Shown here one piece after another: positions 20,290 through 42,016 of a stretch of 64,000 nucleotides of DNA. A model generated the notes under the pieces. That model did not search any database and had not been told where the DNA came from. It saw nothing but the letters and a program-made list of their open reading frames with translations. Source of the DNA: Pandoraea pneumonica. GTDB taxonomy: Bacteria; Pseudomonadota; Gammaproteobacteria; Burkholderiales; Burkholderiaceae. How positions within the stretch are numbered: position 1 is the first letter of the stretch; every line of letters starts with the position of its first letter. Location of the stretch: positions 62,001 through 126,000 of the forward strand of contig NZ_CABPSK010000006.1 in assembly GCF_902459645.1 (NCBI RefSeq), read 5' to 3'. The position numbers were made by a program, and so were the translations under genes.

Positions 20290-20301
20290 TCGCTTAGTAT
20301 T

Positions 20302-20339
20302 TTCTCGTATACGAGAATGAAAATTCTCATATATGATAA
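20302..20339. promoter_or_regulatory. Double palindromic operator of the XRE-cupin regulator
   Basis: TTCTCGTATACGAGAA (20302-20317) is a perfect 16-bp palindrome. A second, slightly degenerate copy, TTCTCATATATGATAA, is at 20324-20339. Their 22-bp spacing equals two helical turns, so two dimers could bind on one face. It lies between the divergent regulator and ridA-like gene. Binding by this regulator is inferred. Confidence 0.7.
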
Positions 20340-20418
20340 CTGAAATAGCCGCAGCCCCTTGGTGTCTGCGTCGACGGTCGCATCGTCATTCCATCGTCCT
20401 TCTTTTCCGAGTCCAGCA

Positions 20419-20772
20419 ATGAAGAAAGAAATCACGCGTTTGCAAACCAATGCCCGTATGAGTCAGGTGGTCATCGCTGGGGGCGTCGTCTATCTGGCGG
20501 GCCAAGTGCCGATGACGCAACATGCCACGATTACCGAGCAGACGATCGAAGTTCTGAAGCAAATCGATGCGTTGCTCGAATCGGCGGGCGTCGATAAAAC
20601 CCATCTCCTCACGGCGAACATTTGGCTTTCCGACGCGCGATATTTCGAGGAATTCAACCGCATTTGGGATGTTTGGGTTCCGGAGGGCAACGCCCCCACG
20701 CGCGCATGCGTGCAGTCGCCCTTGATGCGAGCGGGTTTCGACGTAGAAATTGCCGTCACGGCGTTGGCCTAA
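20419..20772 (+). CDS. RidA family protein
   Basis: A 117-residue YjgF/YER057c/UK114 family protein. RidA enzymes hydrolyse reactive enamine/imine intermediates released by amino-acid-oxidising or PLP enzymes. The sequence shows VYLAGQVP, a long central helix (TEQTIEVLKQIDALLESAG) and a C-terminal TRACVQSPLMRAGFDVEIAVTA in which the family Arg is present. The stop is 1 nt before the dehydrogenase ATG, so the two form an operon, which points to disposal of 2-imino acids made by that enzyme. Confidence 0.92.
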   Translation: MKKEITRLQTNARMSQVVIAGGVVYLAGQVPMTQHATITEQTIEVLKQIDALLESAGVDKTHLLTANIWLSDARYFEEFNRIWDVWVPEGNAPTRACVQSPLMRAGFDVEIAVTALA

Positions 20773-20773
20773 T

Positions 20774-22006
20774 ATGAAATTCGATGTTCTCGTACTTGGC
20801 GGCGGGATCGTAGGCACCTCGACGGCGATCCATCTCCAGCGTCGTGGCCTGATAACCGCGCTTATCGACCGTGAAGCGCCCGGCCGGGAAACGTCATATG
20901 GCAACGCGGGCTTGATACAGCGTGAAGGGGTGTACCCCTATGCATTTCCAAGAGACCTCGGCACGCTGCTTCACTACGCGCGCAATCGATCGACAGACGT
21001 GCGCTATCACCCATCAGCGCTGCCGAGCATCGCCCCGTTCCTCGCGCGCTACTGGCATCACTCCGCGCCAGATCGCCACGCGCGCATCGCCCGCCAGTAC
21101 AGCACGCTGATCGAACATTGCTTAACCGAGCACAAAGCGCTCATCGGTCTTGCGGGCGCAGACGAACTGCTACGCGAAGGTGGGTGGCTCAAGGTCTTCC
21201 ATCACAGTGGAGCGCTCGACGCTGCGCATCTCGAAGCTGAGCGTTGGCACCGTGAGTACGACGTACCTTTCGAGCGGCTCGATGCCACGCAACTTCAGCG
21301 CGATGAGCCTTCACTGTCGTCAACGCTCGCCGGTGCCATTCGATACACCGCGTCGAATTCGATACGCGATCCGGGCGAGTTGGTGACCCGCTACGCAAGC
21401 TACTTTACGTCGCTAGGCGGGCATATCATTCGCGGCGATGCGACCACGCTAAGCCCGCATTGGCGCGTACAGACTGCCGAGGGAGAGGTGGAAGGCCGAC
21501 AGGCCGTCGTGGCCATGGGCCCATGGTCCGACACGGTCACGCGTGCGCTGGGCTACCAGCTGCCGCTGGCGGTCAAGCGCGGCTATCACCGGCACTTCAA
21601 ACCCGAACCGGGGGCAAGTCTGAATCAACCGGTACTCGATGCCGAAAGTGGCTTTTTGATCGCACCGATGCAGCAAGGTATTCGTCTGACCACGGGCGTC
21701 GAACTTGCTTGGCGCGATGCACCACGCACACCGGTGCAGCTAGCGGCAGTCGAGCCAATGGCGAGACAGTTGTTCCCATTGGGAACGCCCATCGAATCGA
21801 CGCCATGGATGGGCAGCCGCCCCTGCACGCCAGACATGCTGCCGATCATCGGCCCGGCACCGAACCATCGCGACCTCTGGTTCGCATTTGGTCACGCTCA
21901 TCACGGCCTGACGCTCGGTCCTGTGACAGGACGTTTAATCGCCGAGATGGTGACTGGCGAGCCGACGTTAGTCGACCTCACACCCTTCCGCGCCGATCGT
22001 TTCTGA
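20774..22006 (+). CDS. FAD-dependent D-amino-acid dehydrogenase-like oxidoreductase
   Basis: A 410-residue DAO/DadA-family flavoprotein. The dinucleotide motif GGGIVGTSTAIHLQRRG begins near residue 8, an ETSYGNAG flavin loop follows, and the C-terminal FGHAHHGLTLGPVTGRLIAEM is typical of DadA-like enzymes. These oxidise D-amino acids to imino acids and pass electrons to quinones. RidA next door would hydrolyse the imine product. The exact amino acid is not known; glycine or sarcosine oxidase-like activity is an alternative. Confidence 0.87.
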   Translation: MKFDVLVLGGGIVGTSTAIHLQRRGLITALIDREAPGRETSYGNAGLIQREGVYPYAFPRDLGTLLHYARNRSTDVRYHPSALPSIAPFLARYWHHSAPDRHARIARQYSTLIEHCLTEHKALIGLAGADELLREGGWLKVFHHSGALDAAHLEAERWHREYDVPFERLDATQLQRDEPSLSSTLAGAIRYTASNSIRDPGELVTRYASYFTSLGGHIIRGDATTLSPHWRVQTAEGEVEGRQAVVAMGPWSDTVTRALGYQLPLAVKRGYHRHFKPEPGASLNQPVLDAESGFLIAPMQQGIRLTTGVELAWRDAPRTPVQLAAVEPMARQLFPLGTPIESTPWMGSRPCTPDMLPIIGPAPNHRDLWFAFGHAHHGLTLGPVTGRLIAEMVTGEPTLVDLTPFRADRF

Positions 22007-22163: not shown

Positions 22164-23621
22164 TCACGCGAACGGGTTTTCGACGCGTGGCCAGTAATTG
22201 AGATTGCGGCGGTGGTAGGGGATTGCCGCGAAGTCAGGCGTCAGCGCGCCCGGTGCCGCGACGTGGACGATCGCCTTCGCCCGAGGGGCAAACTCCGCTT
22301 GAAAGTGCTGCGTCGATTTCACGATCACGAGCCGTTTGGCGTCCATGGCGATACCGATGCCGGTGAAAGCGTCCACACCGATGACTTGTGTTCGCACGGA
22401 GACAAGCACGATGTCCAATCCGTTGGGCCCTTCGACCCAGACCGAGCGTCCCAACGGAATCGACATCCCGTGGATGCTCTGCGAATGCGCATCATGCACA
22501 GCCCGGACGGTGACACGCAGATCGATCGGGTCGCCTGAAGTGACACCGCATTTGCCGCCGATGCGAAGGTCGAGCGTGGCGCCGACACCGGCATCCGCAC
22601 AGATTTGAATCGCCCCCAGATCCCAGAAGCAACCCAGCGCAACATTGGGGATACCTCGCTCCACGATGCGCCGAAGCACAAACGTGCTGTCCCCTGGGGC
22701 ACCGCCGCCGGGGTTATCCGCAACATCCGCCACGACGACCGGACCATCCCCCACCGCCAACGCGGTATCGAGCCCGTGATCCAGATCGAGCCATTTGGGC
22801 TGAACCTCGTGCCGCATCGCCCAGAACTCACTACCGAGTTGATCCGCTAACGCACTGGCAAGCTCGGGGTCGCGGTCTGCAACCACCCAAAGCTTCGCGC
22901 CTGCCTCGGGAACGTCTCCCCAGGGGAAGCCGTGACCGAGCGACACGGAGAGAATGCCGTCGCGCCCCTCGAAGGACTTCATGCGCCGCACGAAGCCCGC
23001 CATCGGTTCCGACGTGGTATGCCATGCGCCCACCAAGCGGCACTCGTGCACGGCCGTGACTGGCGTGACTTTGCCATCGGCAGCTTGCGTCACCAGCCGG
23101 TAGGCTTCGCGCAACCGATCGATCGCATCCGTATGCGGATACTCTTTGTAAGCGATGAGAATGTCGGCCGCACGCTGCATTTGCGCGGTGAAATGACAAT
23201 GCGGATCGAGTGTCGCGGCAATGGGCACGTTGGGGCCGACGACTTCACGAATGCGTGCGAGCAGGTCGCCTTCGCAATCGTCGTAATGCTGCGCCACCAT
23301 CGCACCGTGAAGCATGAGCACCACGGCGTTGATCGGCAGTGCGGCGCGCACCCCGGCGACGATCTCGTCGCGCAACGTCTCATAGACCGCTCGAATCACA
23401 GGGCCCGATGGCTGTGCTTCCGCGCTCAGCCCCTCAGCCAATGCGTTGCCATCGGCGTGAATGAGTCGCCGCAGTTCCGCCATCAGATAGCCCACACTTT
23501 CGGGCGCGCGCAGACTTGCGTCGCCCCGGAAAATGCCAAATTCCTGAAACCCGCCCCAGCCCGTGGGGCATGGCGCGAAGGTGTTGGTTTCTGTCGATAG
23601 CTGTGCCGCGAAGATCTTCAT
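22164..23621 (-). CDS. M81 family metallopeptidase (MlrC-like)
   Basis: A 485-residue protein of the MlrC/DUF1485 family. The best-known member, MlrC, cleaves the linear tetrapeptide formed during microcystin breakdown; most members have no known substrate. Family features are the start MKIFAAQLSTETNTFAP, LHGAMVA, DPHCHFT, YKEYPHTD, the HGFPWGDV segment and DVADNPGGGAPGDST. The start at MKIFAAQ is preferred over a frame to 23657. It sits between the D-amino-acid dehydrogenase operon and the sensor kinase, and a candidate regulatory site lies 73-90 nt upstream. Confidence 0.9.
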   Translation of the reverse strand: MKIFAAQLSTETNTFAPCPTGWGGFQEFGIFRGDASLRAPESVGYLMAELRRLIHADGNALAEGLSAEAQPSGPVIRAVYETLRDEIVAGVRAALPINAVVLMLHGAMVAQHYDDCEGDLLARIREVVGPNVPIAATLDPHCHFTAQMQRAADILIAYKEYPHTDAIDRLREAYRLVTQAADGKVTPVTAVHECRLVGAWHTTSEPMAGFVRRMKSFEGRDGILSVSLGHGFPWGDVPEAGAKLWVVADRDPELASALADQLGSEFWAMRHEVQPKWLDLDHGLDTALAVGDGPVVVADVADNPGGGAPGDSTFVLRRIVERGIPNVALGCFWDLGAIQICADAGVGATLDLRIGGKCGVTSGDPIDLRVTVRAVHDAHSQSIHGMSIPLGRSVWVEGPNGLDIVLVSVRTQVIGVDAFTGIGIAMDAKRLVIVKSTQHFQAEFAPRAKAIVHVAAPGALTPDFAAIPYHRRNLNYWPRVENPFA

Positions 23622-23694
23622 GACGAGTCCAGAGGTGTGAAGAAAACCGTGACACACACTCTATGGGGACCGCGTTGCCTGATTGTGAGCAATG

Positions 23695-23712
23695 TGTATC
23701 GACATTGACACA
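23695..23712 (-). promoter_or_regulatory. Third candidate copy of the TGTNTC-N5-CGATACA operator
   Basis: On the minus strand, upstream of the M81 gene, the sequence reads TGTGTC-AATGTC-GATACA. It matches the core found before the receptor and tonB genes, in the same orientation relative to the downstream gene. Confidence 0.5.
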
Positions 23713-23759: not shown

Positions 23760-24797
23760 CTATCGCCTCGGCAGCACGACACGTGCGATCAAGCCGCCTT
23801 CTTTGCCGTTAAGCAGCGTCAACGACCCGGCGTGCCGCTTCACCACATCGTGCGCAATGGCTAGCCCGAGCCCGGTACCGCCGGTGTCGCGGCTACGCGA
23901 TTGTTCGAGGCGAAAGAACGGCTCAAGCACCCGCTCGAGATCGCGCTCCGGAATGCCCGGGCCGCGATCGACGACGTCGATTTGAACCGCGTCGTTGCCA
24001 TCGATCAGTTCAATGCGCGCCTCGCCGCCATAACGAATGGCATTCGCCACCAGATTGCTCAGACAACGCTTCAACGCCAGCGGCTGCGCGAGCAGCGGTG
24101 CGATCGCGCCCTGCACTGAGACTTTCTGGCCGCGTTCCAGCGCGTCTTCCGCAATGGCATCCACGAGCGCATCGATGTCGATGGGGCTGAGTTCTTCCGT
24201 GACGGCCTCATTGCGCAGAAACGAGAGCGTTGCGTCGAGCAACTGCGTCATTTCATCGATATCCGAGACCATTCGATCGCTGAATTCCGATGCTTCGAGC
24301 GTCCGCACTCGAAGGCGCATGCGCGTGAGCGGTGTGCGCAAATCATGCGAGACGGCGGCGAGAAAGCGATTGCGATCGTTTACCTGACGGCGGATGGCGG
24401 CCTGCATCGAGTTGAAAACACGCGCCGCTTGCCGCGCTTCGATGGGCCCCGCTTCGGGAATGGGGGGCGCGTCCATATTGCGGGACAACTCCGCCGCCCC
24501 CGCGGCCAGCGACTTGAACGGCACCGACAGCATTCGCGCGCCGACCCAGGAAGAAACGAGTAGCGGAACGAGCTGCACGGCAGTGGCAATCCCCCATTGC
24601 AGCCCGGCCGACATGCCGGGCGGTGGCTTGAAGGCGGCCGACGAGTACAGCGTGTACATCAGTATTCCGGTGCCAGCTTGCGTGAGCGCCACCATGACGA
24701 GCATGACAAACAGCAGCCGATAAAACGCGGAGTCGAACGATGGCTTTTGCATGGTGGTGGCGGACGTCGTAGAAGAGAACTCGAACATGGCCGCCAT
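23760..24797 (-). CDS. Sensor histidine kinase (EnvZ-type)
   Basis: A 345-residue inner-membrane kinase. Two membrane helices (LLFVMLVMVALTQAGTG and LQWGIATAVQLVPLLVSSWV) flank only about 20 periplasmic residues. A HAMP-like linker, the phosphoacceptor box SHDLRTPLTRMR, N box NLVANAIRYGG, D box VDRGPGIPE and G box GGTGLGLAIAHDVV follow. The start is uncertain: TTG 24827, ATG 24797 or ATG 24788. No regulator gene is adjacent; the best partner is the OmpR-type regulator at 36037. The short loop suggests sensing within the membrane or through a partner. Confidence 0.9.
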   Translation of the reverse strand: MAAMFEFSSTTSATTMQKPSFDSAFYRLLFVMLVMVALTQAGTGILMYTLYSSAAFKPPPGMSAGLQWGIATAVQLVPLLVSSWVGARMLSVPFKSLAAGAAELSRNMDAPPIPEAGPIEARQAARVFNSMQAAIRRQVNDRNRFLAAVSHDLRTPLTRMRLRVRTLEASEFSDRMVSDIDEMTQLLDATLSFLRNEAVTEELSPIDIDALVDAIAEDALERGQKVSVQGAIAPLLAQPLALKRCLSNLVANAIRYGGEARIELIDGNDAVQIDVVDRGPGIPERDLERVLEPFFRLEQSRSRDTGGTGLGLAIAHDVVKRHAGSLTLLNGKEGGLIARVVLPRR

Positions 24798-24920
24798 TAT
24801 CCCGCGCCCATGTAGCGCCTTCGTCAACAGATTGTTTCAAGACAGACACATCCGCGCGCACGTCCACACACACATACGCCGCGCGCCAACTCCGCAGGGA
24901 TAAGCCACCGCGTTCACGAG

Positions 24921-24960
24921 GCTATGTTTCACGCGCGATACAAAGTCCACATGAACCAGA
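24921..24960 (+). promoter_or_regulatory. 40-bp regulatory block upstream of the receptor gene
   Basis: The core is TGTTTC (24925-24930), six spacer bases, then GATACA (24937-24942). The whole 40 bp matches 32 of 40 positions, without gaps, in the minus-strand sequence 35900-35861 upstream of tonB. It lies about 160 nt before the receptor GTG. Confidence 0.65.
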
Positions 24961-24990
24961 AATGTCGCGCAAATAACGTCTATCCCGGAA

Positions 24991-25103: not shown

Positions 25104-27497
25104 GTGGCAATCAGACAGCATCGCAGGCATACCGCAGTCACTTGGCATCGATTCAGATTATGTCCGCGCGGCGGAACCTGGTTGGTCGGCTCGCTGCTGG
25201 GGCTAGCGTCAGCCTATGGACATGCGCAAACCGTAACGCTACCAGGTGCCGCGTCTGCGGTGAGTGCCGACGCAGAGAGCGCCAACCCAACGCCTCAGAC
25301 AAACGCAAACCCGGGCGGAACCGCTGGAAGCGCCGGAAGCGCAGAAGCCGCAGCAAGCGCAGAAACCAAGACCGCAGCGTCGGCGAAAGACGGCGCAACG
25401 CTCAATACCGTGGTGGTGACGGCCACGCGTCGTCGCGAGCCTGCGCGCGAAGTGCCGATGCAGATCAACGTCATTTCCGCCGATGACTTGCAGAAGAGCG
25501 GCGCGAAAACGATGTCCGATTTTCTCGCGGCCGAGCCGGGCGTCGATCTCAACACCCAAGGCGGCAGCGGTGCCGGACAGATCAGCATGCGCGGCGTGAC
25601 GACCGGCGAGCAGACCGGCCCCACCGTCGGTGTCTACGTCGACGATGTCGCCTTCGGCGGCAGCACGGTCTTCTCGCAAGGCGCCTCGTTCGCGCTGGAC
25701 ATGAGCCTGTTGGATCTGAATCACATCGAAGTGTTGCGCGGGCCGCAGGGCACGCTCTACGGCGCGGGGGCGATGGGCGGGCTGTTGAAGTACGTCACGA
25801 ACGAGCCGAATACCAATGAATTCTCCGGCCAGGCGAGCCTCGGCATGTCGTCGACCAAACACGGCGGCATTGGCAATAGCGCGAACGCGGTGCTCAATAT
25901 CCCGATCAAGAGCGACGTAGCGGCGGTGCGCGTCTCTGCGTTCAGCCAACACGACGCCGGGTACGTCGACGCCGTCGGACCGCAGGCAGGCAACCGAATC
26001 GACAGAGGCGATACGTACGGCGCGCGCGCGTCGTTGCTCCTGACGCCAACGAGTCAATTCACCGTGCGCCTGAGCGCGATCACGCAGAACATCAATCGCA
26101 ACGCCCCCAACTATGTTGCTTACGACAGCACTGGCAAACCCGTCGATGGCGATCTGACGACGCGGGTGTATGCCCCGGAGCCGTTCCATCAAAACGTTCA
26201 GCTCTACTCGCTTGGCGTGGAGTACGACTTCGGCTGGGCACGCTTGAACTCGATCACGTCGTATCAATCGGTCAAGACAGACCAGCCGCAGGATCTGTCG
26301 GTGGTCTACGTGCCGGCGCTCGCGGCTCAAGGGCTCAATTTGAACTCGGTCGTCGCGGCAAACTTTGCGAAGACGAACAAGGTGACGCAAGAGTTTCGTC
26401 TGACATCGGCGGCGAACCAGCGCCTCGAATGGTTAGGCGGGCTCTTCTTTACCCGTGAACGAAGCGAGTCGGATCAGGGCATTCTCGCCGGATTCCCCGA
26501 CGGGACGTCGGCCACGCTCTCCGGACTGGTGGCACCGAGCACCTATACCGAATACGCCGCGTATGGCGACGTGACCTACCACCTGACGCCGCGTTTGGCG
26601 CTCACGGGCGGTATCCGAATCGCCCACAACCAGCAGAACTACGACCAAACGACATCGGGCATTCTGGGCGGACCGCCCCAATCGACTTCCTCGCCGTCGT
26701 CCGACACCAGCAAGACCTACATGTTGACGGCCAGCTATCGATTGACCGAGAACAGCAACGTGTACGTTCGCGCGGCTAGCGGCTATCGCCCCGGTGGGCC
26801 GAACGCGCAGCTCATCAGCCCAATCACGGGGCTTCCCGGCAATGGCAATCCAACGTTTCAGCCCGATACGCTTTGGACATACGAGGCAGGCTACAAGGCC
26901 GATTTGTTCGACAAACGGCTTTCGTTCTCGGCCACCGTCTACGACATCGAGTGGAAAAACATCCAGCAGCTCGGCGCCATCGATGGTGTGAATCAGGTGC
27001 TCAACGCGGGGGATGCGCGCGTGAAGGGGTTCGAGTTGGCGAGTAGCTTCCGCCCCGATCAGCACTGGACGTTTGGCTTGGGCTTTTCCTACATCGACGC
27101 AAGGTTGACGCAGGGAAATACCGCCACTGGGACACAAACAGGCGACCCGCTGCCGAATTCCGCCAAGTTCGCGGCCACGCTGACGGGGACATACCACTTC
27201 TCGATCGCCTCGTATGCCTCGTACGTGGGGATTGCGCAGCGATTCGTCGGCAGTCGCCACTCCGGGTTTAGCGGCAGCAGCGGCCGACCCGATTACCCGC
27301 TGCCGGGTTATGCCGTGACCGACCTTCAGGCGGGGATCGACTTCGGCCGCGCCAGCCTGAACTTCTACGTGCGCAACGTGTTCGACCGCCGCGCGCTGCT
27401 TGCCGCAGGGACCGCCCTCATGCCGCTCGGCGGACCGGCGCTCGTCAGTGTGGAACAGCCGCGCACCATCGGCGCTGTGCTCACCGTGCCGTTCTGA
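25104..27497 (+). CDS. TonB-dependent outer-membrane receptor
   Basis: A 797-residue ligand-gated porin. A long basic N-terminus and hydrophobic core ending near AYGHA-QT look like a signal peptide. An Ala/Ser-rich stretch precedes the TonB-box-like LNTVVVTATRR, then the plug (PMQINVISADDLQKSG, IEVLRGPQGTLYGAG) and the beta-barrel, ending in a terminal Phe (AVLTVPF). The GTG start has GGAGGAG 7 nt upstream. No haem or siderophore genes are nearby; the linked peptide-processing genes suggest a peptide ligand. It is followed after 45 nt by a D-aminopeptidase-like gene. Confidence 0.94.
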   Translation: MAIRQHRRHTAVTWHRFRLCPRGGTWLVGSLLGLASAYGHAQTVTLPGAASAVSADAESANPTPQTNANPGGTAGSAGSAEAAASAETKTAASAKDGATLNTVVVTATRRREPAREVPMQINVISADDLQKSGAKTMSDFLAAEPGVDLNTQGGSGAGQISMRGVTTGEQTGPTVGVYVDDVAFGGSTVFSQGASFALDMSLLDLNHIEVLRGPQGTLYGAGAMGGLLKYVTNEPNTNEFSGQASLGMSSTKHGGIGNSANAVLNIPIKSDVAAVRVSAFSQHDAGYVDAVGPQAGNRIDRGDTYGARASLLLTPTSQFTVRLSAITQNINRNAPNYVAYDSTGKPVDGDLTTRVYAPEPFHQNVQLYSLGVEYDFGWARLNSITSYQSVKTDQPQDLSVVYVPALAAQGLNLNSVVAANFAKTNKVTQEFRLTSAANQRLEWLGGLFFTRERSESDQGILAGFPDGTSATLSGLVAPSTYTEYAAYGDVTYHLTPRLALTGGIRIAHNQQNYDQTTSGILGGPPQSTSSPSSDTSKTYMLTASYRLTENSNVYVRAASGYRPGGPNAQLISPITGLPGNGNPTFQPDTLWTYEAGYKADLFDKRLSFSATVYDIEWKNIQQLGAIDGVNQVLNAGDARVKGFELASSFRPDQHWTFGLGFSYIDARLTQGNTATGTQTGDPLPNSAKFAATLTGTYHFSIASYASYVGIAQRFVGSRHSGFSGSSGRPDYPLPGYAVTDLQAGIDFGRASLNFYVRNVFDRRALLAAGTALMPLGGPALVSVEQPRTIGAVLTVPF

Positions 27498-27542
27498 TAC
27501 GCCCGACCGAATGACTGAATGACCGAATACCGGAGACTCTCA

Positions 27543-29177
27543 ATGACTTTGCAGCACCAAGACGTGCACGATCGGCTTGACGCCCATCTTGCGAAATTCA
27601 ATCGAAGTGATTCCCCAGGGCTAGTGGTCGGCATTGCCCGCGCGGGGCGTGCGCTGTACCGGAAGGGGTTCGGCATGACGAGCCTCGAACACGGCGTTGC
27701 CAACAGTCCGGCCACCCGCATGCGTATCGGTTCGACCAGTAAGCATTTCACCTGCCTTGCCGTGCTGCTCCTTGCCGAGGACGGCAAACTGGATATCGAT
27801 GCGGGCGTTCGCACTTACCTTCCCGAATTACCCGAATTGAAGGGCGTACCGACGCTGCGTCAGTTGATGACGCATACCGGCGGCTATCGCTGCTATCTCG
27901 ACTTATCGGTGATCACGCAAGGTGTTGCCACCATCGGTCCGGGCGTGCCGTTAGCGATTGAGTTGCGTCAGCAGGATGTCAACTTCGCACCGGGCGAGCG
28001 CATGATTTATTGCAACGGGGGATATCACCTCCTGTCGCAAGTCATCGCACGGGTGAGCGGCATGCCGTTCGAGCAATTCCTTGCGCAACGAATCTTCCGC
28101 GTGATGGGCATGAACGACACGGAGTCCGTCAGCGACGACCTGCGAATCCGGCCGCGCATGGCCACGCAGCACGTGCCGGACGGCGCGGGCGGATATTTGC
28201 GTGGATTGTTTCCGAGCGTCGATGTCTTGGGCGAGGGCGGTATCGTCTCCACGATTGACGACATGCTGACGTGGACCGCACACCTCCGTCACCCGACCAA
28301 ACTCGGCAGCCCCGACACGTGGAGAGAGATGCTGACGATGCCGCGATACTCGAGCGGTGAAGTTGGCGTCTATGCGTTGGGATTGATGCGCACCCGCTAC
28401 CGCAACGTCGACACCATTCATCATGCAGGCGGTGTTTTCGGCGGATGCAGCCAGATGTTGACGGTGCCCGCGCACGACTTGGACATCGTGTTGATGAGCA
28501 ACGGTGCAGCGGTCAATCCCGTGGCGTTGGCGACCGAGATCGTCGATATCGTCCTGGGCGACGAAGTCCTCGGCGCACCGCGGCAAGCCCCGGCAGAGAC
28601 GTCGGACAACCCCGGCTTGCGCGGTAAATATCTTTCCGTCGAACCGCTTCAGTGGGTGGAAATCGCGGAGCGCGACGGCGCGTGGTACGCAACGACACAC
28701 AATCAATCGCATCATCCGGAGCCGCTCATCGCCGATGAATTTGGCTACCGAATCGACGATGGCGCGGGGGCGCAGACGCGCGTCGTGCCGCATGCACGTA
28801 CACCGGCGGGCGACGTTTCGGCCATCGATGTCATCGAGAGCGGGCATGCCGTCACCTTGCGTCGACACGACATCGTGCTGCCGACCGAGGCGTTAAAAAT
28901 GGACGAAATCTGCGGTCGATACTTCAGTCACGATGCCGACGCACACGCCGTCGTCTCGATTGAGGATGAGGGGCTGACGCTCGCCATTCGCGGGGCTACG
29001 GGAAGTGCACGCTATCGACTGAATGCCTTGACCCGCGATGTCTGGACCTTCGCGCCTGCCGACGCTTCGGCAATGGCGACGGGCACGGCACGGGTGGAAC
29101 GCAGCGCGGACAAGGCTACGCGCTTTTTCCTTTCCACATCCCGCACGCGGGGACTAGCGTTCGCTCGAGTCGAGTGA
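27543..29177 (+). CDS. D-aminopeptidase-like serine hydrolase (1)
   Basis: A 544-residue member of the beta-lactamase/DD-peptidase fold group resembling Ochrobactrum D-aminopeptidase (DAP). It shows SxxK as STSK (Ser64-Lys67), YxN as YCN in MIYCNGGYH, and HxG as HAG in IHHAGGVFGG. The C-terminal 200 residues fit the extra beta-barrel domains of DAP. DAP releases N-terminal D-residues from peptides. No signal peptide is seen, suggesting cytoplasmic action. CGGAGA precedes ATG 27543, which is preferred to ATG 27519. It forms an operon with the receptor. Confidence 0.87.
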   Translation: MTLQHQDVHDRLDAHLAKFNRSDSPGLVVGIARAGRALYRKGFGMTSLEHGVANSPATRMRIGSTSKHFTCLAVLLLAEDGKLDIDAGVRTYLPELPELKGVPTLRQLMTHTGGYRCYLDLSVITQGVATIGPGVPLAIELRQQDVNFAPGERMIYCNGGYHLLSQVIARVSGMPFEQFLAQRIFRVMGMNDTESVSDDLRIRPRMATQHVPDGAGGYLRGLFPSVDVLGEGGIVSTIDDMLTWTAHLRHPTKLGSPDTWREMLTMPRYSSGEVGVYALGLMRTRYRNVDTIHHAGGVFGGCSQMLTVPAHDLDIVLMSNGAAVNPVALATEIVDIVLGDEVLGAPRQAPAETSDNPGLRGKYLSVEPLQWVEIAERDGAWYATTHNQSHHPEPLIADEFGYRIDDGAGAQTRVVPHARTPAGDVSAIDVIESGHAVTLRRHDIVLPTEALKMDEICGRYFSHDADAHAVVSIEDEGLTLAIRGATGSARYRLNALTRDVWTFAPADASAMATGTARVERSADKATRFFLSTSRTRGLAFARVE

Positions 29178-29242: not shown

Positions 29243-30931
29243 TTACGAGAAAGCCTTGGCGAATCGCAGATGCCGCGTCCGGGGTGTGTTGACAGCAAAT
29301 CCCTCGACACTCCCCGAGCTGGGGCACCTGACGATGGAAATCGTGCCTGTTGTGATGGCGTTCGGGCCGCGGGGCGAGAAGCGAAACAGATCGGTGTCGA
29401 GCGGAAAGACGTCGTAGTGGCATTCCCCCGCGCGCCCCACGATCGCTAACGACATGATTGCGCAAACGTCGCCAGACGCTTCTTTCCCCGGCACCACACG
29501 ACACAGCGTGGCGCGAGCGTCGGCTTCTTCGCTAGCATAGTCACCGCGTAGCGAATCGACGACATCGAGACTCACCGATGACGGTATCTCAATCCGACGA
29601 TAAGTCCTTGCATGACCGCAGTGCGAGATGCGCAATTGCGCTGCATCGTCCGGCGCGATGGCGGCCCCCCACTGAAGCAGGAAGGTGCCGTCGCCACTCG
29701 ATTCCAAGGCGAACTCGCACGTGCCGGTTGCCGGGGCGTCGACCGCGTAGAGCGTTGGATTGCTCGGTTCAAGCGGACCGCTGAGCGTCATGGTCTCGCC
29801 ACGCTCGGCGATGGCGTAGACGATGTCGCTGTTTGCCTCGCGGTAGGTTCCGGCGCGTTCGCGCCAAGGGGCCATGATGGCGGGCGTCGGGGCGGCGCAT
29901 TCCTTCAACTCGTCAGCCAACAGGATGTCCAGCATGCGAAGCGACAACGCCGTCGGTGCCGAAATCGCCCCGTTGCTAAGCAGCACGATATCGATGCCGT
30001 ACTCGGGGACGCATAGCATCTGGCACGATCCCCCGACGACACCCCCGGCGTGGTGGATCAGCTCACACCCGCGATATTGCGTGCGTTTCAACCCCATCAT
30101 GTAATCGCTGCGCCGGCCACTGGTGAATAGGGGCGACGAAAACATCATGTCCCATGTGGCGGTGCTTCCCACGCGTTTTGCACCGCGCAGATGGGCACAC
30201 CATTTCAGCATGTCGTCCACGCACGAGACGACGCTGCCCTCGCCGAGTATCTCGCGCGAAGGGAAGAGTCCCCGGCCGTAAGCGCCGTCGCCGTGATCGA
30301 CATGGCAAGCGGCCATCCGGCTGTGAATCCGATAATCGTCGGGCAGGCAAAACGTATCGTTCATGCCCAAGGGTTCGAATATTTCAGACGCCAGAAACGC
30401 CGCGAACGATTGCCCACTGACACGCTCGATCGCCAGCGAAATCAGGTGATATCCGCCGTTGCAGTACATCATCCGCTCGCCAGCAGGAAAATTGACGCCG
30501 GTTTGTCTGCGCTGAATGTCGAGCAGATAGCCCGGCGACGGTGCCGCCAGCCCGTTGGTAAGCAGCGAGATGTCGAGCGCGCAGCGTTGCCCGCTTGTGT
30601 GAAACATGAGCGAGCGTATCGTCGCCTCGCCTGCGATTCCCGTCAGCTCGGGAAGATAACGCCGGATCGGCACATCGATATCCAGCGCTTTCGCTTCCTG
30701 AAGCAGCAGCGTGGCGAGGCAGGCCATGTGCTTGCTTGTCGAGCCGATGCGCAGCCGCGTCTGCGCGTGCAATGCCAGTCCCAGACCAACATCCGACATA
30801 CCAAAGGCTCGGCGCAACGCGATCTCGCCGTTCATCACCACCCCGGCAACGACGCCCGGTGCGTCGCTTCGGTTGAACGGCTCAAACAGCGCCATCAGCG
30901 CTTTGCCATCGAATCGCGCTTGTGTCGACAC
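29243..30931 (-). CDS. D-aminopeptidase-like serine hydrolase (2), GTG start
   Basis: A 562-residue paralogue of the neighbouring hydrolase, with STSK at the same residues (64-67), YCN in MMYCNGGYH and HAG in IHHAGGVVGG. The GTG at 30931 is chosen because GGAGGA lies 7 nt upstream and it places FNRSDAPG exactly 18 residues from the start, as in the paralogue. Longer frames overlap the epimerase gene. The start lies 16 nt after the epimerase stop. It is tail-to-tail with paralogue 1 across a 65-nt gap with no clear terminator. Confidence 0.86.
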   Translation of the reverse strand: MSTQARFDGKALMALFEPFNRSDAPGVVAGVVMNGEIALRRAFGMSDVGLGLALHAQTRLRIGSTSKHMACLATLLLQEAKALDIDVPIRRYLPELTGIAGEATIRSLMFHTSGQRCALDISLLTNGLAAPSPGYLLDIQRRQTGVNFPAGERMMYCNGGYHLISLAIERVSGQSFAAFLASEIFEPLGMNDTFCLPDDYRIHSRMAACHVDHGDGAYGRGLFPSREILGEGSVVSCVDDMLKWCAHLRGAKRVGSTATWDMMFSSPLFTSGRRSDYMMGLKRTQYRGCELIHHAGGVVGGSCQMLCVPEYGIDIVLLSNGAISAPTALSLRMLDILLADELKECAAPTPAIMAPWRERAGTYREANSDIVYAIAERGETMTLSGPLEPSNPTLYAVDAPATGTCEFALESSGDGTFLLQWGAAIAPDDAAQLRISHCGHARTYRRIEIPSSVSLDVVDSLRGDYASEEADARATLCRVVPGKEASGDVCAIMSLAIVGRAGECHYDVFPLDTDLFRFSPRGPNAITTGTISIVRCPSSGSVEGFAVNTPRTRHLRFAKAFS

Positions 30932-30947
30932 GGCATATCCTCCGGAA

Positions 30948-31967
30948 TCAATGCGCCTCATGCTGTAAGGCGTCATCGCGCCCCCAAGGACTCTCCGGGC
31001 CGAACAGATACCCATCCCGATATTGAAACGAGGGCGTGCGGTCTTCTGCCAGAAAGCAGGGCCCGTCGAGGTCGATGCGGTCGCACAACTGTCCCAGAAT
31101 GTAGGCCGGTGCGACGCCAAGCGATGTGCAGGGCATGCAGCCGACCATGACCGAGCGTCCGCGCTCTCGAATCGCGCTGACGAGCGAAAGCGCGCGCGTG
31201 AGGCCACCGCATTTATCGAGCTTCACGTTCACAACGTCGTACCGGCGCGCGACCGATGCGAGATCGTCCAGATCTTGAAACGACTCGTCTGCGGCCAGGC
31301 GAATCGGATATCGCATCGACTCAAGACATTCGTCCTCACCCACCGGCAGGGGTTGTTCGAGCAGGTCGATACCCACGTGCTGCATAACTGGCAGCATCTG
31401 GCGCATGTGGTCTTGTGTCCAACCCTGATTGGCGTCAACCGACAGTGCGACGCTGGGGCATGCGGCGCGAATGGCGAGAAGTCGATCGGCATCGGCCGCA
31501 TTCCCGTCGAGTTTGATCTTCAATGCCACGGCACCTTCGTATCCTCGCGCTGCCTCGGCCATGGCGGGTGCCGTGTCCACGCCGACGGTAAACGTTGTGC
31601 GCAGCGGGCGCAGGCGCGCGCGTCCGGCCAATCGCGCGACCGTCATGCCACAACGCTGAGCGGCGAGTGACCACATCGCCGCGTCGACAGCATTTCTCGC
31701 ACCCCCGGCAGGCAGCAGCCCGATGAGCGCCTCACGCGATATACCGCGCTCGATTTGCGGGCGTACGGCGGCAATTTGCTCGGCCATGTTCTCGGGCGTT
31801 TCTGCCCGGTAGTAGACACCGGCGGCCTCGCCTCGGCCTCGATGCTGACCGGATCGCAACGCAACGACCAGTACGCGAGCGGCGTCGACGGTATGACCCG
31901 AGACGTGAAAGGGGGCGGCCAGTGGCCAGTGTTCTATGCGAACGGAAAGCGTGCAGGGAATCGTCAT
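30948..31967 (-). CDS. Dipeptide epimerase (enolase superfamily)
   Basis: A 339-residue mandelate-racemase/MLE-type enolase resembling L-Ala-D/L-Glu epimerases. Lys150 and Lys152 (ALKIKLDG), metal ligands Asp178 (SVDANQGW), Glu204 (LLEQPLP) and Asp227 (AADES), and Lys249 (NVKLDKCGG) form the expected active site. The DGPCFLAEDR segment is typical of dipeptide epimerases. Such enzymes convert L-Ala-D-Xaa dipeptides, for example from peptidoglycan, to L,L forms that normal peptidases can cut. It is 6 nt after the MFS gene in a seven-gene operon. Confidence 0.88.
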   Translation of the reverse strand: MTIPCTLSVRIEHWPLAAPFHVSGHTVDAARVLVVALRSGQHRGRGEAAGVYYRAETPENMAEQIAAVRPQIERGISREALIGLLPAGGARNAVDAAMWSLAAQRCGMTVARLAGRARLRPLRTTFTVGVDTAPAMAEAARGYEGAVALKIKLDGNAADADRLLAIRAACPSVALSVDANQGWTQDHMRQMLPVMQHVGIDLLEQPLPVGEDECLESMRYPIRLAADESFQDLDDLASVARRYDVVNVKLDKCGGLTRALSLVSAIRERGRSVMVGCMPCTSLGVAPAYILGQLCDRIDLDGPCFLAEDRTPSFQYRDGYLFGPESPWGRDDALQHEAH

Positions 31968-31973
31968 AGGCGC

Positions 31974-33326
31974 TCAGGTGTAGCGTTCGATGGCCGCGCG
32001 TACGGCATTGGCCGCACTGCGCATGAGGAGACAGGCCGCGACGAATCCCGACACGGCTACGGCCACGATGGCCCAGATAAGCCCCGAGGCGGTGCCATGC
32101 AGGTGATCCGACATCAGGCCGATGGCGACGGGACTGCCGGACTGCATCAACACCGTAGTCAGCACCCCGATCGCCGCCACTCTCGAGCGCAGATAAGGCG
32201 GGCAAATGCTCTGCATCAGTCCCGGGAACATGATCATGCCCGCCACGACGCACATGAACTGCGCGCCGAACAGCACGTAGACATACGACACCGACGGCGC
32301 GACCAAATAGGCGAGGCTGACGACGCACGCGCCCAAGGCCCCCCACTCGCAAACGCGTAGCGGGGCAAGCACGCCGAGCCGCGAGCTCAGGCGGCGAGCG
32401 ACTAGCCAGCCGAGCGCACAGCCGATAACGCTGCCGACCATGGCGGCGCTGCCGAGTCCGGCACCCGCCGTAGCCGGTGTTGCGCCGAAGAAGCGCACGG
32501 CGACGACCGGCATCCAGGTGGTCACGCCAGCAAACGCCATGTTGATCAGCGCGATGGCCCCGAAAAAACGGATCATCATCGGCATTTCGCGGCGGAAGTA
32601 TTGCCCCGCAGCGAGCCCGGGCGCCGACACGTTCCCGGTCGCGCGCTGAGTGTCCGAATGGGCATAGCGCGGCCGGATCATCGCGACGATCAACACCAGC
32701 AGCGGCGCGGGTATGGCGACGGCGAAGAAGGCCATCCGCCACGTGGAAGCGTTGCCCAGACCGAACGGCATCACGCCGTGCAAGGTGTCGATGCCTTGGA
32801 TGAGCAGCCCGCCAAGCGCCATACCTGCACCGGCGCTCAACAAGTTGACCAACGCGAAGACCGAGTTGGCGAGAATGCGTTGGCGTGCAGGGAAGAGGTC
32901 GGGGAGCAAACCGTAGATGATCGGCATGAGCCCCGCTTCGCCGATACCCAGACCGATCGATGCGATGAAGAGCGTCCAGAATCCGGTCGCCAAGCCGCAC
33001 GCGGCCGTCGCAGCGCTCCAGAGAAGGATGCACAGCGCCAGCACGGCACGGCGATCCACGCGGTCGGCGAGCCAGCCGATAGGAATGGCCGCAGCGCCTG
33101 CAAAGAGCGCAATGCCAGCGCCTTGCAGAAGCCCGACCTGAATGTCGGCAAGGCCGAATTCTGCGCGGATGAGTTCGGCCAACAGCACCAGCATCTGGCG
33201 ATCGACGTTGGCGAAGAAGGTCACGACGACTAGGGCGAGCAGCCCGAGCCACGCCCCAGCGCCCGCATATTGCTCGCGGCGTGAGGCGGCGGCATACCGT
33301 GGCGTTTCGGTATTCGAATCGAACAT
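31974..33326 (-). CDS. MFS transporter, probable peptide or amino-acid permease
   Basis: A 450-residue inner-membrane protein with 12 predicted helices and the MFS motif A GWLADRVDRRAVL between TM2 and TM3. Its place between the ExbD genes and the dipeptide epimerase suggests that it carries the imported ligand, or its fragments, across the inner membrane, as AmpG does for muropeptides. That role is inferred from position. The start at MFDSNTETP is chosen over a longer frame to 33365. Confidence 0.87.
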   Translation of the reverse strand: MFDSNTETPRYAAASRREQYAGAGAWLGLLALVVVTFFANVDRQMLVLLAELIRAEFGLADIQVGLLQGAGIALFAGAAAIPIGWLADRVDRRAVLALCILLWSAATAACGLATGFWTLFIASIGLGIGEAGLMPIIYGLLPDLFPARQRILANSVFALVNLLSAGAGMALGGLLIQGIDTLHGVMPFGLGNASTWRMAFFAVAIPAPLLVLIVAMIRPRYAHSDTQRATGNVSAPGLAAGQYFRREMPMMIRFFGAIALINMAFAGVTTWMPVVAVRFFGATPATAGAGLGSAAMVGSVIGCALGWLVARRLSSRLGVLAPLRVCEWGALGACVVSLAYLVAPSVSYVYVLFGAQFMCVVAGMIMFPGLMQSICPPYLRSRVAAIGVLTTVLMQSGSPVAIGLMSDHLHGTASGLIWAIVAVAVSGFVAACLLMRSAANAVRAAIERYT

Positions 33327-33383
33327 GTGAAGTCCAGTATTGAGTGCGTCAGCGTGCAAGGGCACGGGCGCAGAGACGAGATG

Positions 33384-33812
33384 TCATTGCGCGAAGCGCT
33401 CGTTACCCACGAGTCCGATGCGCGTCACGCCCAGCCGCTGCGCCGACGCCATGACCGTTGCGACCGACCGGTAGGGCGCTGTCGCATCGGCGCGCAGGTG
33501 CAGTTCGGTCGGCGGTGTGGACGTCGCGGCTTCGGTGAGGCGGGTCTCCAATTGCGCGCGGTCGCTAAGCGGCAAACCGTTCCATGCCACGATGCCGCTC
33601 GCGTCGACATCGATTTGCACGACGAGCGGAGGCGTCGCGGGTGCGGCATTGGAAGGTGCGGGCATGTCGAGCTTCACGGCATGCGTCTGAATCGGAATGG
33701 TGAGAATCAGCATGATCAGCAGCACCAGCATGACGTCGATGAGTGGCGTCGTGTTGATCTCCACCATGATGTCGCTGTTCTCGCCAGCGCCCGAGGGCAT
33801 GGTCATTGCCAT
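33384..33812 (-). CDS. exbD: ExbD-type biopolymer transporter (second copy)
   Basis: A 142-residue inner-membrane protein with one TM helix (LIDVMLVLLIMLILTIP) whose Asp is the proton-pathway residue of ExbD/TolR, then a periplasmic domain. It partners ExbB to energise TonB. The start is supported by CAGGAG 7 nt upstream. It lies 28 nt after the first exbD. Confidence 0.92.
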   Translation of the reverse strand: MAMTMPSGAGENSDIMVEINTTPLIDVMLVLLIMLILTIPIQTHAVKLDMPAPSNAAPATPPLVVQIDVDASGIVAWNGLPLSDRAQLETRLTEAATSTPPTELHLRADATAPYRSVATVMASAQRLGVTRIGLVGNERFAQ

Positions 33813-33840
33813 GGCAGTCTCCTGAGAGGTGCGCGTCGCG

Positions 33841-34275
33841 CTATTGGCGCGGCGGCGCTTCGGTAATGAAGTCGACCTTGGCGATGCCCGCGCGCTGGCA
33901 GGCGAGGACAACCCGTCCGATCGCGGCATAGCGAGCATCGAGATCGCCGCGAATTTGGACTTCGGGCTGGGGTGTCAACACGGCGACCGTCTTGAGTTTT
34001 TCCATCAACGTCGCCGCGTCGGGAATGTGCCGTTCGTCCCAGTACACCTCGCCGTCGCGTGTGACGGCGAGGACAACGTTCTGAGGCGTGGTCTGCAAGG
34101 GTTGCACTGCTTCCTTCGGAAGGGTGACGGGCACGGTGTGCGAAACCACGGGAATGGTGATGAGGAAGATGATGAGCAACACCAGCATGACGTCCACCAG
34201 CGGCGTCGTGTTGATGGTCGCCATGACCTCGTCGTGCTCTGCGCCACCGCTCCCGCCAGATAGGGACATCGCCAT
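33841..34275 (-). CDS. exbD: ExbD-type biopolymer transporter (first copy)
   Basis: A 144-residue ExbD/TolR family protein with NTTPLVDVMLVLLIIFLITIP as its membrane helix and conserved Asp. The periplasmic domain (about 50-140) differs clearly from the second copy, so the pair is an old duplication. It begins 4 nt after exbB. The tonB-exbB-exbD-exbD order is known from Xanthomonas. Confidence 0.93.
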   Translation of the reverse strand: MAMSLSGGSGGAEHDEVMATINTTPLVDVMLVLLIIFLITIPVVSHTVPVTLPKEAVQPLQTTPQNVVLAVTRDGEVYWDERHIPDAATLMEKLKTVAVLTPQPEVQIRGDLDARYAAIGRVVLACQRAGIAKVDFITEAPPRQ

Positions 34276-34279
34276 GGCA

Positions 34280-35110
34280 TCACCCCACACGCGCGACTTG
34301 CGACGACCGGGTCGCGACGATGGCCGAGGCCGTCGTCTTGCCGGTGAGCAGCACGTTGTGCATTTCGCAGCCGAAGTCGCGCACGCGCTCCATGACGGCT
34401 TTGTTGCGACGCACGAGCCAGTTGTAGCCGAGCACGGCGGGCACGGCGACCGCCAGGCCAATGGCCGTCATGATCAGCGCTTCGCCCACGGGCCCTGCGA
34501 CCTTGTCGATCGACGCCTGCCCGGCAATACCGATCGCGGTGAGCGCGTGATAGATGCCCCAAACGGTGCCGAAGAGGCCGACGAACGGGGCCGTCGAGCC
34601 GACGGTGCCCAAGAACGACAGGCCGTCCTGGAGCCGGTTCGACACGCCGGTCATGGCACGCTCGATAGCGCTGGCGATCCAGGTATTCAAGTCGACCTGA
34701 TCGAGCAGGGCACCGTTGTGATGATCGCGTGCCGACAGCGCGGTTTCAGCGATATATCGAAACGGGCTACCCGCATCGAGCGACCGGATGCCTTCGGACA
34801 GCGACGTGGCGTTCCAGAAGTTCTTTTCGGCGGCGCGGGCGCGACGCAAGACTTTGGCTTGTTCGAGCAATTTCGCGACGATGATGTACCAACTCCCCAT
34901 CGACATCACCACGAGAATGAGCAGGGTCCCGCGAGCGATCATGTCGCCGCCTTCCCACAGCGCTTGCAGCCCGTAGGGGTTGGTCACGGTCGATGCGGCA
35001 TGCGCGGCGGGCGAGGTGAGCGCCGCAAGGGTCGACATGACGGCCATGAGGGCCAAGGCGCCCGAAGGGCGGCGCTTACGCGGTGCGGCACGATACTGGA
35101 ACTGAAACAT
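34280..35110 (-). CDS. exbB: ExbB (MotA/TolQ/ExbB proton channel)
   Basis: A 276-residue inner-membrane protein. After a signal-like N-terminus (residues 15-38) come three TM segments: LLILVVMSMGSWYIIVAKL, GSTAPFVGLFGTVWGIYHAL and GEALIMTAIGLAVAVPAVLGYN. These form the ExbB channel core around ExbD. It lies 51 nt after tonB. Confidence 0.94.
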   Translation of the reverse strand: MFQFQYRAAPRKRRPSGALALMAVMSTLAALTSPAAHAASTVTNPYGLQALWEGGDMIARGTLLILVVMSMGSWYIIVAKLLEQAKVLRRARAAEKNFWNATSLSEGIRSLDAGSPFRYIAETALSARDHHNGALLDQVDLNTWIASAIERAMTGVSNRLQDGLSFLGTVGSTAPFVGLFGTVWGIYHALTAIGIAGQASIDKVAGPVGEALIMTAIGLAVAVPAVLGYNWLVRRNKAVMERVRDFGCEMHNVLLTGKTTASAIVATRSSQVARVG

Positions 35111-35161: not shown

Positions 35162-35800
35162 TCAATTGAGTTGAAAGTCGAACGGCACTTGCACGCGCAC
35201 TTCCTGACCTTGTGCGACGCACTGAAACTGCCGGACGGCGCTCTCTGCCGCGCGGTCTAGCACCGGGGCGGCAGAACGGGCGACGCGAAGTTGTTTGACC
35301 TGTCCATCGGTGCCGACCACGAATTCGATGAGGACGTTGCCGGTGATGTTGTCGCGCAGCGCTTCACGCGGGTACCGGATACCGGCGCGAACTTGCGCAG
35401 AGTTCGGGCAAACGACGCCGACGTTGCCCGCCACAGGCTTGCTCTCGGCAGGGGCCGGAGGCGCCACCGGTGCGGTGGCGACAGGCTTGTCGGACTGCAC
35501 CGCGATCGCATTGGGTTGCGGCGTGGTGGGCACCTGCACTTCGGGCGGCGGCACGTAGGCCTTCGGCTGGACGACAGGGCGTGGTGCCGGGGCGATCTTC
35601 TTTACCGGCGGTGGTGGGGGCGGCGGCGGAGGCGGTTTGAGTTCCTCGATGATGCGTGTCTCGATGGGGGCCTGAATGATCGTCGCGACACGGGTTGCGA
35701 GCCCGCTAAGCAGGGCATACAGAATCAGGGCGTGCAGCAGCAGTGCCACGCCGATTCCGAGCAGTCGCCGGGCGGGCGGTTTGGGCTGGGCGTAATTCAT
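35162..35800 (-). CDS. tonB: TonB energy transducer
   Basis: A 212-residue protein anchored by one N-terminal helix (LLGIGVALLLHALILYALLS, with the conserved His). A polyproline stretch (ten Pro near residue 55) and Pro/Ala-rich spacer cross the periplasm. The C-terminal TonB domain has YPREALRDNITGNVLIEF and two Cys. First gene of a seven-gene operon. The 40-bp block shared with the receptor gene lies upstream, so this TonB probably serves that receptor. Confidence 0.94.
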   Translation of the reverse strand: MNYAQPKPPARRLLGIGVALLLHALILYALLSGLATRVATIIQAPIETRIIEELKPPPPPPPPPPVKKIAPAPRPVVQPKAYVPPPEVQVPTTPQPNAIAVQSDKPVATAPVAPPAPAESKPVAGNVGVVCPNSAQVRAGIRYPREALRDNITGNVLIEFVVGTDGQVKQLRVARSAAPVLDRAAESAVRQFQCVAQGQEVRVQVPFDFQLN

Positions 35801-35860
35801 GGACTACGTGTCTCCTACCGGCATCGGTCTTGTGTGGAGCCACGTTACGGCGCAGGTATT

Positions 35861-35900
35861 TCTGTTTCATCTCGACTTTGTATCGGGTTTGATACATAGG
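35861..35900 (-). promoter_or_regulatory. 40-bp regulatory block upstream of the tonB operon
   Basis: Read on the minus strand it contains TGTATC (35896-35891), AAACCC and GATACA (35884-35879), a perfect inverted repeat. It also contains a conserved ATGAAACAGAAAT-like extension. It matches 24921-24960 at 32 of 40 positions, in the same orientation relative to its gene. It is also upstream of the divergent response regulator. Confidence 0.68.
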
Positions 35901-36036
35901 CGATGCGATGGACCGGCGCCGAATGTTTCAGGACTGCAACAATGCCGCAAGATTGCTGGCACGTTTGTCGCGGATAATCGCGCAGTGGGGGACTGGGAAT
36001 CGATGTAGCGAAAGATAAAAAGAGGGGAGAGCGAAC

Positions 36037-36756
36037 ATGGCAACGCACGTACTGGTAGTCGACGACGATGCGCAGATTCGTAGTCTGCTTTGCGATTGTC
36101 TTGCCGGCTTTGGCATGACCTGTATGCAGGCGGCCAGCGGCGAGGAGATGCACGATGTGCTGGCACACAACGATATCGACATCGTCGTGCTCGACTTGAT
36201 GCTGCCCGACAGCGACGGCCTGACGCTATGCCGGGAATTGCGCACCTCGTCGGAAATTCCCATCGTGATGCTCACCGCACGTGGCGAGATGACCGACAGA
36301 ATTGTCGGCCTCGAACTTGGCGCGGACGATTACGTCGTGAAGCCGTTCGAGCCGCGTGAGTTGGTGGCGCGCATTCAGACGATTCTTCGCCGCACCCGCG
36401 CGCAGGCGAAGGCGGTACCCGAGCCGAAGGACGAGCGGCGGTTTGCTGGATGGCGCCTCAGTTTGATCGGTCGCCATCTCATTGCGCCCGACAATACGGT
36501 CATTCCGCTTTCCAACGCTGAATTTCGACTGCTCAATGCCTTCCTGTCTGCGCCGGGGCGCGTGCTGAGCCGTGAGTACCTAATGGATACGGCGCGGGGA
36601 AAGTCGATCGATGCGTTCGACCGCAGCATCGACGTGCAGATATCGCGGCTGCGGCACAAGCTCCGAGAAGACATCAAAGAGCCCCGGTTACTGCGCACGA
36701 TTCGCGGCGAAGGCTACATGCTCGATGTTCGCGCGCGCTCGGACGTCGACGGCTAG
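36037..36756 (+). CDS. OmpR-family response regulator
   Basis: A 239-residue regulator. The receiver domain has the acidic DDD (9-11), phosphoacceptor Asp53 (VVLDLMLPD), TAR and VVKPFEP. The C-terminal winged helix (about 140-232) has LSNAEFRLLNAFL and RTIRGEGYML. A strong GAGGGGAG site precedes the start. It is divergent from tonB and has no adjacent kinase; the EnvZ-type kinase 11 kb away on the far side of the receptor gene is the best partner. It may bind the TGTNTC-N5-CGATACA sites. Confidence 0.93.
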   Translation: MATHVLVVDDDAQIRSLLCDCLAGFGMTCMQAASGEEMHDVLAHNDIDIVVLDLMLPDSDGLTLCRELRTSSEIPIVMLTARGEMTDRIVGLELGADDYVVKPFEPRELVARIQTILRRTRAQAKAVPEPKDERRFAGWRLSLIGRHLIAPDNTVIPLSNAEFRLLNAFLSAPGRVLSREYLMDTARGKSIDAFDRSIDVQISRLRHKLREDIKEPRLLRTIRGEGYMLDVRARSDVDG

Positions 36757-41934: not shown

Positions 41935-42016
41935 GAGAAGTCCTCCGGGACGCCGCATGGCGGCGCCCGTTCATTGCCGGTGTCGTGTGTTCGTGTCGTG
42001 CCGTCGGTTGCGAGAA

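Follow-up and report, generated by a model that had tools for sequence, protein, structure and literature searches.

Five promoters of a TonB-dependent uptake cluster in Pandoraea pneumonica share a putative OmpR-type operator at a fixed distance from the -10 element

A 40-bp block shared by the promoter regions of a TonB-dependent receptor gene and a tonB operon in Pandoraea pneumonica is very probably the operator-promoter of a local regulon, which would be run by an OmpR-family response regulator (the gene starting at position 36037) together with an EnvZ-like histidine kinase (23760-24752). The window throughout is the whole 64,000-nt stretch of DNA analysed, and the reading rests on sequence comparison within it and across relatives. 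A box occurs at five transcription units—those of an M81 peptidase, the histidine kinase, the TonB receptor, the tonB operon and the response regulator—with the consensus TGTNTC-N6-GNNACA across the five promoters and with 31 bp between its end and a -10-like hexamer downstream. Given this shared box and its fixed 31-bp spacing to the -10, the 40-bp block can be read as an operator plus a core promoter. Co-regulation of the five units via a common cis element is strongly supported by these comparisons, and their activation by the regulator is likely.

The two blocks, 24921..24960 on the plus strand at the receptor and 35861..35900 on the minus strand at the tonB operon, are identical at 32 of 40 positions without a gap, a figure from the first-pass annotation that a recount bears out; the runner-up match for either 40-mer on either strand of the window is 24 of 40. 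The best ungapped 40-mer between the two intergenic regions has 33 identical positions, against a maximum of 28 in 395 random segment pairs of the same sizes as these regions drawn from the window. The annotation was likewise right that each copy is oriented toward its own gene and that both share a TAACGT, which lies at equal distance from each. The weaker similarity that it saw running on into this TAACGT is present, but represents promoter sequence, with the TAACGT as a -10-like hexamer at its end; and while both of the copies that it described are real, the total is five boxes, not two. A spaced 22-base motif allowing up to 3 mismatches has 4 matches in the window, with 0.10 expected. The pattern TGTWTCA-N5-GATACA (TGTWTCANNNNNGATACA) has 2 exact matches in the 5.85-Mb genome of the organism, both in this cluster, and with at most 1 mismatch it yields 6 rows from 5 places; the cluster accounts for 4 of these places. 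The sole other place (G000:C4:162080) was rejected as an extra target, having AATCGA at +31, which is no -10. At up to 2 mismatches the scan returned 50 rows against 41 for a reversed-pattern control, and this tier is uninformative on its own.

All five of the 18-mer boxes are followed by a -10-like hexamer after exactly 31 bp. Motif scans and the -10 spacing place the receptor box, TGTTTCACGCGCGATACA, at 24925..24942 on the plus strand with TAACGT at 24974..24979, and the tonB box, TGTATCAAACCCGATACA, at 35879..35896 on the minus strand with TAACGT at 35842..35847. Also on the minus strand are the box of the M81 peptidase gene, TGTGTCAATGTCGATACA (23695..23712, with TAGAGT at 23658..23663), and that of the histidine kinase gene, TGTGTCTGTCTTGAAACA (24833..24850, with GATAAT at 24796..24801), and the box of the response regulator gene, TGTTTCAGGACTGCAACA, lies on the plus strand at 35924..35941 with GATAAT at 35973..35978. 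Scored with E. coli -10 frequencies, the five promoters sum to 19.8 at offset 31, the next best offset giving 0.2. None of 10,000 resampled sets, with downstream sequences generated from first-order Markov chains, reaches 19.8, and their best sum at any offset is at most 12.2. As -10 elements, the hexamers TAACGT and TACCGT are poor, each agreeing with TATAAT at 3 of 6 positions.

The regulator (36037..36756, plus strand) has the architecture of the OmpR/PhoB family, with a Response_reg domain (101.4 bits) and a Trans_reg_C domain (78.7 bits), both above cutoff. Its D53, which we take to be the conserved phospho-acceptor aspartate, is invariant in 14 homologues. The kinase gene (minus strand; HAMP, HisKA and HATPase_c domains) is given its start at 24752 in preference to the longest-ORF start at 24827, because the predicted -10 of its promoter covers the latter. 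For the same reason the M81 metallopeptidase related to MlrC (22164..23621, minus; family profiles) more likely starts at 23621 than at 23657. Family profiles also identify the TonB-dependent receptor (25104..27497, plus) and, 3' of it, a beta-lactamase-fold peptidase related to D-aminopeptidase (27519..29177, plus). On the minus strand the tonB half comprises TonB (35162..35800; family profile), ExbB (34280..35110; MotA_ExbB), two ExbD genes (33384..34461; the ExbD profile in both), an MFS transporter (31974..33365; family profile), an enolase-superfamily racemase (30948..31967) and a second beta-lactamase-fold peptidase related to D-aminopeptidase (29243..31207). The racemase is related to DgcA and to L-Ala-D/L-Glu epimerase, and falls below both cutoffs (357.6 bits against 400 for the DgcA model); the coordinates of the second peptidase are those of the longest ORF, whose overlap with the racemase gene makes a lower true start probable. 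Co-transcription of the genes 3' of the boxed promoters is assumed from orientation and spacing. Judged by gene content, the likely purpose of the cluster is the uptake and breakdown of D-amino-acid-containing peptides.

Genes on either side of the cluster have no box with at most 1 mismatch in the own-genome scan. Those at 19633-22006, which adjoin it, code for an XRE-cupin regulator, a RidA-like (L-PSP) protein and a DAO-family FAD oxidoreductase, and they accompany the cluster in several Pandoraea and Paraburkholderia relatives. Beyond the regulator, 36798-41958 holds a gamma-glutamyltranspeptidase-like gene and what appear by eye to be branched-chain amino acid ABC transporter genes; these could possibly be linked to the cluster in function, through peptide or amino-acid use.

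The same promoter geometry is kept in relatives. A regulator of at least 80% identity is present in 13 of the 200 family genomes searched, the organism's own included, and all 12 of the others carry the cluster. Together with the window and 8 further clusters from named genomes, these make a set of 21 from Pandoraea, Ralstonia, Burkholderia, Paraburkholderia and the record 'Burkholderiaceae bacterium 26'. Left out of the counts were a fragment without promoters (L061), distant matches in Bacteroidota (L068-L072) and loci from genomes already counted (L053-L056, L058, L062, L066, L067). The box, together with a -10-like hexamer at +31, occurs at the tonB promoter in 21 of 21 clusters, at the receptor in 20 of the 20 with a separate receptor promoter, at the M81 gene in 20 of the 20 with that gene in the stretch read, at the kinase in 20 of the 20 with a separate kinase promoter and at the regulator in 18 of 21, orthologous promoters not being independent and L051 and L052 being closely related to each other. 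The three regulator exceptions (L039, L041 and L042) have CATAAT at +32, and hexamers scoring as well make up 1.7% of those in these upstream regions. The kinase and regulator boxes were first chosen with the aid of the -10; with boxes chosen by position and mismatch only, the counts are unchanged except for the regulator, which drops to 12 of 21 because the nearby tonB box scores better in 6 Pandoraea clusters and because of CATAAT at +32 in 3. Beyond Pandoraea the kinase and regulator boxes mostly have 2-3 mismatches to TGTWTC-N6-GAWACA, and the kinase box is weaker to this degree (2-3 mismatches) in 10 of the 20 clusters with a separate kinase promoter.

Rearranged clusters keep the boxes with the transcription units. 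In Burkholderia (e.g., L038, L040) and Paraburkholderia the half that holds the receptor, kinase and M81 genes lies inverted with respect to the tonB half, and every unit still has its box. In P. bronchicola (L057) the tonB operon includes the receptor gene, and the regulator and kinase genes overlap at the end of the former; the boxes occur there at the tonB and regulator promoters only, the receptor and kinase having none of their own, which is the pattern that co-regulation predicts. A 38-bp block pattern, strict enough to miss the Ralstonia clusters, matches at 34 places in 18 of 398 family genomes, and its control matches at 0. Among 32 Pandoraea genomes the block is found in 11, and these are the very ones in which a receptor orthologue reaches 64% identity or more; G117, whose receptor relatives reach 50-52% only, has no block. 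Second or more distant copies of the receptor, 50-57% identical, occur at G082:C6:119375-121558 and G117:C7:187427-199012, and the block pattern is not matched near them. The first-pass annotation had named two observations that would speak against a shared cis element for the receptor and the TonB motor, namely dozens of equally good matches and the loss of the block in relatives keeping the genes. Neither is seen in the own genome, the family genomes or the clusters compared, and the co-regulation that it proposed is upheld by a block that relatives keep and by matches that are not scattered.

The shape of the site emerges from 110 sites weighted over promoter types and genera. Numbered from the start of the box, the conserved columns are the box itself, AA at 19-20, A at 27, AA at 30-31, AA at 37-38 and the -10 at 50-55; across promoter types the box, the phased bases and the -10 are alike and the remaining spacer bases vary. 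An 11-bp recurrence runs through these positions, with A at 16, 27 and 38 and G at 2, 13 and 35, and the strongest repeats of the column profile are those at lags 11 and 22. Of 5,000 permutations of the downstream columns, 2 reach the lag-11 score and 14 reach it when the best of lags 8-14 is taken. The half-sites are thus phased by one helical turn, as expected for an operator of the OmpR/PhoB family. The arms of the 18-mer agree at 5.35 of 7 positions as an inverted repeat and at 3.17 of 7 as a direct one across the 110 sites, which were picked with an inverted-repeat consensus that favours the inverted result. With this selection in mind, we rejected the 18-mer as a pure direct repeat, and the inverted arms are also too strong for a PhoB-type pho box, in which all half-sites are direct. 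Most OmpR-family proteins bind direct repeats, and the more inverted 18-mer to this extent counts against the explanation that we prefer.

The link between the box and the regulator comes from a further genus (g3), in which regulator homologues of 53-59% identity adjoin a kinase gene and the other genes of the cluster were not found in the ~20-kb stretches read around the pair. In 9 of 10 g3 genomes the regulator has directly upstream of it a box that departs from YGTATC-N6-GATACAAA at no more than 1 position, the tenth having a poorer one, and a -10-like hexamer stands at +31 in all 8 pair promoters read. That g3 keeps the box at the promoter of the pair without the cluster indicates that the box follows the regulator and not the uptake genes, and the protein most likely to bind the boxes is the regulator at 36037. 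Three g3 genomes have a second box, with TAGAAT at +31, before a gene that by eye is MFS-like and lies beside a prfC-like gene (L073, 4008-4027, minus; L074, 4154-4173, minus; L075, 4219-4238, plus); in genomes lacking the uptake cluster, this transporter could be the principal target of the pair. Of two further g3 sites, one strand of L077 reads TTTAAT at +31, and L076 has no such hexamer. An OmpR-like paralogue of 54% identity in the organism's own genome shows no such box. In another genus (g11), a paralogue 52% identical to the regulator has GATACA twice as direct repeats 10 bp apart, with TATAAC or TATAAA 20 bp further on; all 7 loci read (L024-L030) show this. These repeats lie ~80-100 bp upstream of the regulator gene, with the same half-site in a different arrangement and a similar phase to the -10.

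The kinase is the probable partner of this regulator, since the adjacency of the two genes in both P. bronchicola and g3 argues that they work together. In the window its two hydrophobic helices are ~15-30 residues apart, leaving almost no extracytoplasmic loop, and the kinase homologues of the other clusters are likewise short-looped (8 of the 13 examined were readable, L042 among them not cleanly resolved); the g3 kinases (n=8) have longer, mostly proline-rich loops. With a loop this short, we conjecture that the kinase may take its signal from within the membrane or from a partner.

Ownership of the box by some other regulator, controlling both the cluster and the regulator-kinase pair, has a certain appeal in that TonB receptors are often Fur targets, TyrR boxes have the same 6-6-6 layout (TGTAAA-N6-TTTACA) and an XRE-cupin gene (19633-20289) adjoins the cluster in the window. 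The letters of the TyrR box differ by eye from those of the cluster box, and a Fur box was rejected: against the 19-bp Fur consensus the three intergenic stretches reach 12 of 19 at best, and other parts of the window 13 of 19. An XRE homologue was not found in the ~20-kb stretches of loci that keep the box (L038-L042, L057, L059, L060), and with the g3 box sitting at the promoter of the regulator-kinase pair, we regard such an owner as quite improbable. It is unlikely, though somewhat easier to entertain, that the regulator binds the boxes and represses, or that it acts in opposite directions at different promoters. Response regulators such as MtrA and CzcR can activate or repress depending on the position of the site (PMC7380067), but a single distance from box to -10, kept at five promoters whose -35 and -10 elements are poor, fits an activator in contact with the polymerase, and a repressor needs no such distance.

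The similarity could also be that of a core promoter alone, served by no dedicated regulator and, for instance, copied within the cluster. The receptor and tonB blocks are indeed the most alike of the five, and one may derive from the other. Such an origin would nevertheless have to account for a box, phased bases and -10 that are alike across promoter types amid other spacer bases that vary, and for a block pattern that 380 of the 398 family genomes lack, among them the 21 of 32 Pandoraea genomes in which no receptor orthologue reaches 64% identity; we give this account hardly any credence.

Under the preferred reading, activation by the regulator at 36037, a phosphorylated regulator dimer would sit on the box and a second dimer on the weaker, in-phase half-sites between the box and the -10. 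This array of dimers would replace the poor -35 element and touch RNA polymerase at a fixed distance, jointly switching on the receptor, the TonB motor, the peptidases, the transporter and both regulatory genes, the latter by positive autoregulation. A more speculative extension, which we put forward as doubtful, is that the whole forms a closed circuit—a self-contained TonB uptake system with its regulatory genes at opposite ends and five units under one rigid operator-promoter, in which the kinase would sense the state of the transport machinery rather than a free ligand.

In kind this would be an ordinary two-component regulon with operators of the OmpR type, and its support from comparison is unusually good; our literature searches found no description of this regulator. 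Sequence by itself supplies the regulator with a probable DNA motif, a promoter geometry, a list of targets and a probable kinase partner. The five promoters are usable as reporters, giving a handle on the signal and the nutrient of a dedicated TonB system, and where similarity alone would miss weak operator copies, a -10 spacing fixed across promoters and genera can confirm them.

Among known systems, OmpR and EnvZ are the closest NCBIfam models for the regulator and the kinase, and both fall short of the equivalog cutoffs (236.3 against 331 bits for the regulator, which is accordingly not OmpR proper, and 205 against 415 for the kinase); unlike in OmpR/EnvZ, the genes of the pair are 11 kb apart in this cluster and the targets are local. 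The pho box of PhoB has 11-bp phasing, an operator that replaces the -35 and a fixed distance to the -10, all of which the cluster box resembles; it consists purely of direct repeats, whereas the upstream pair of the cluster is mostly inverted. The mlr cluster for microcystin degradation is similar in having, as reported, genes for an M81 and a beta-lactamase-fold peptidase close together, and differs from the present cluster, which has a receptor, a dedicated TonB motor and a two-component pair; the M81 peptidase here is not MlrC by the curated cutoff (322.2 against 999 bits). The nearest described precedent is the box of AgrR, an OmpR-family regulator of Cupriavidus metallidurans, which belongs to the same bacterial family and regulator family and has the same mixed type of site, an inverted-repeat core with in-phase direct half-sites, both being needed for activation (PMC7380067). 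The likeness extends to a position typical of a type II activator and to autoregulation, which in our case is inferred (PMC7380067). The AgrR core is ATTACA-N4-TGTAAT, with a 4-bp spacer (6-4-6), and the core here, TGTWTC-N6-GAWACA with 6 bp (6-6-6), is not an AgrR box; AgrR serves silver and copper resistance (PMC7380067), and the present cluster has up to two further weak half-sites before the -10.
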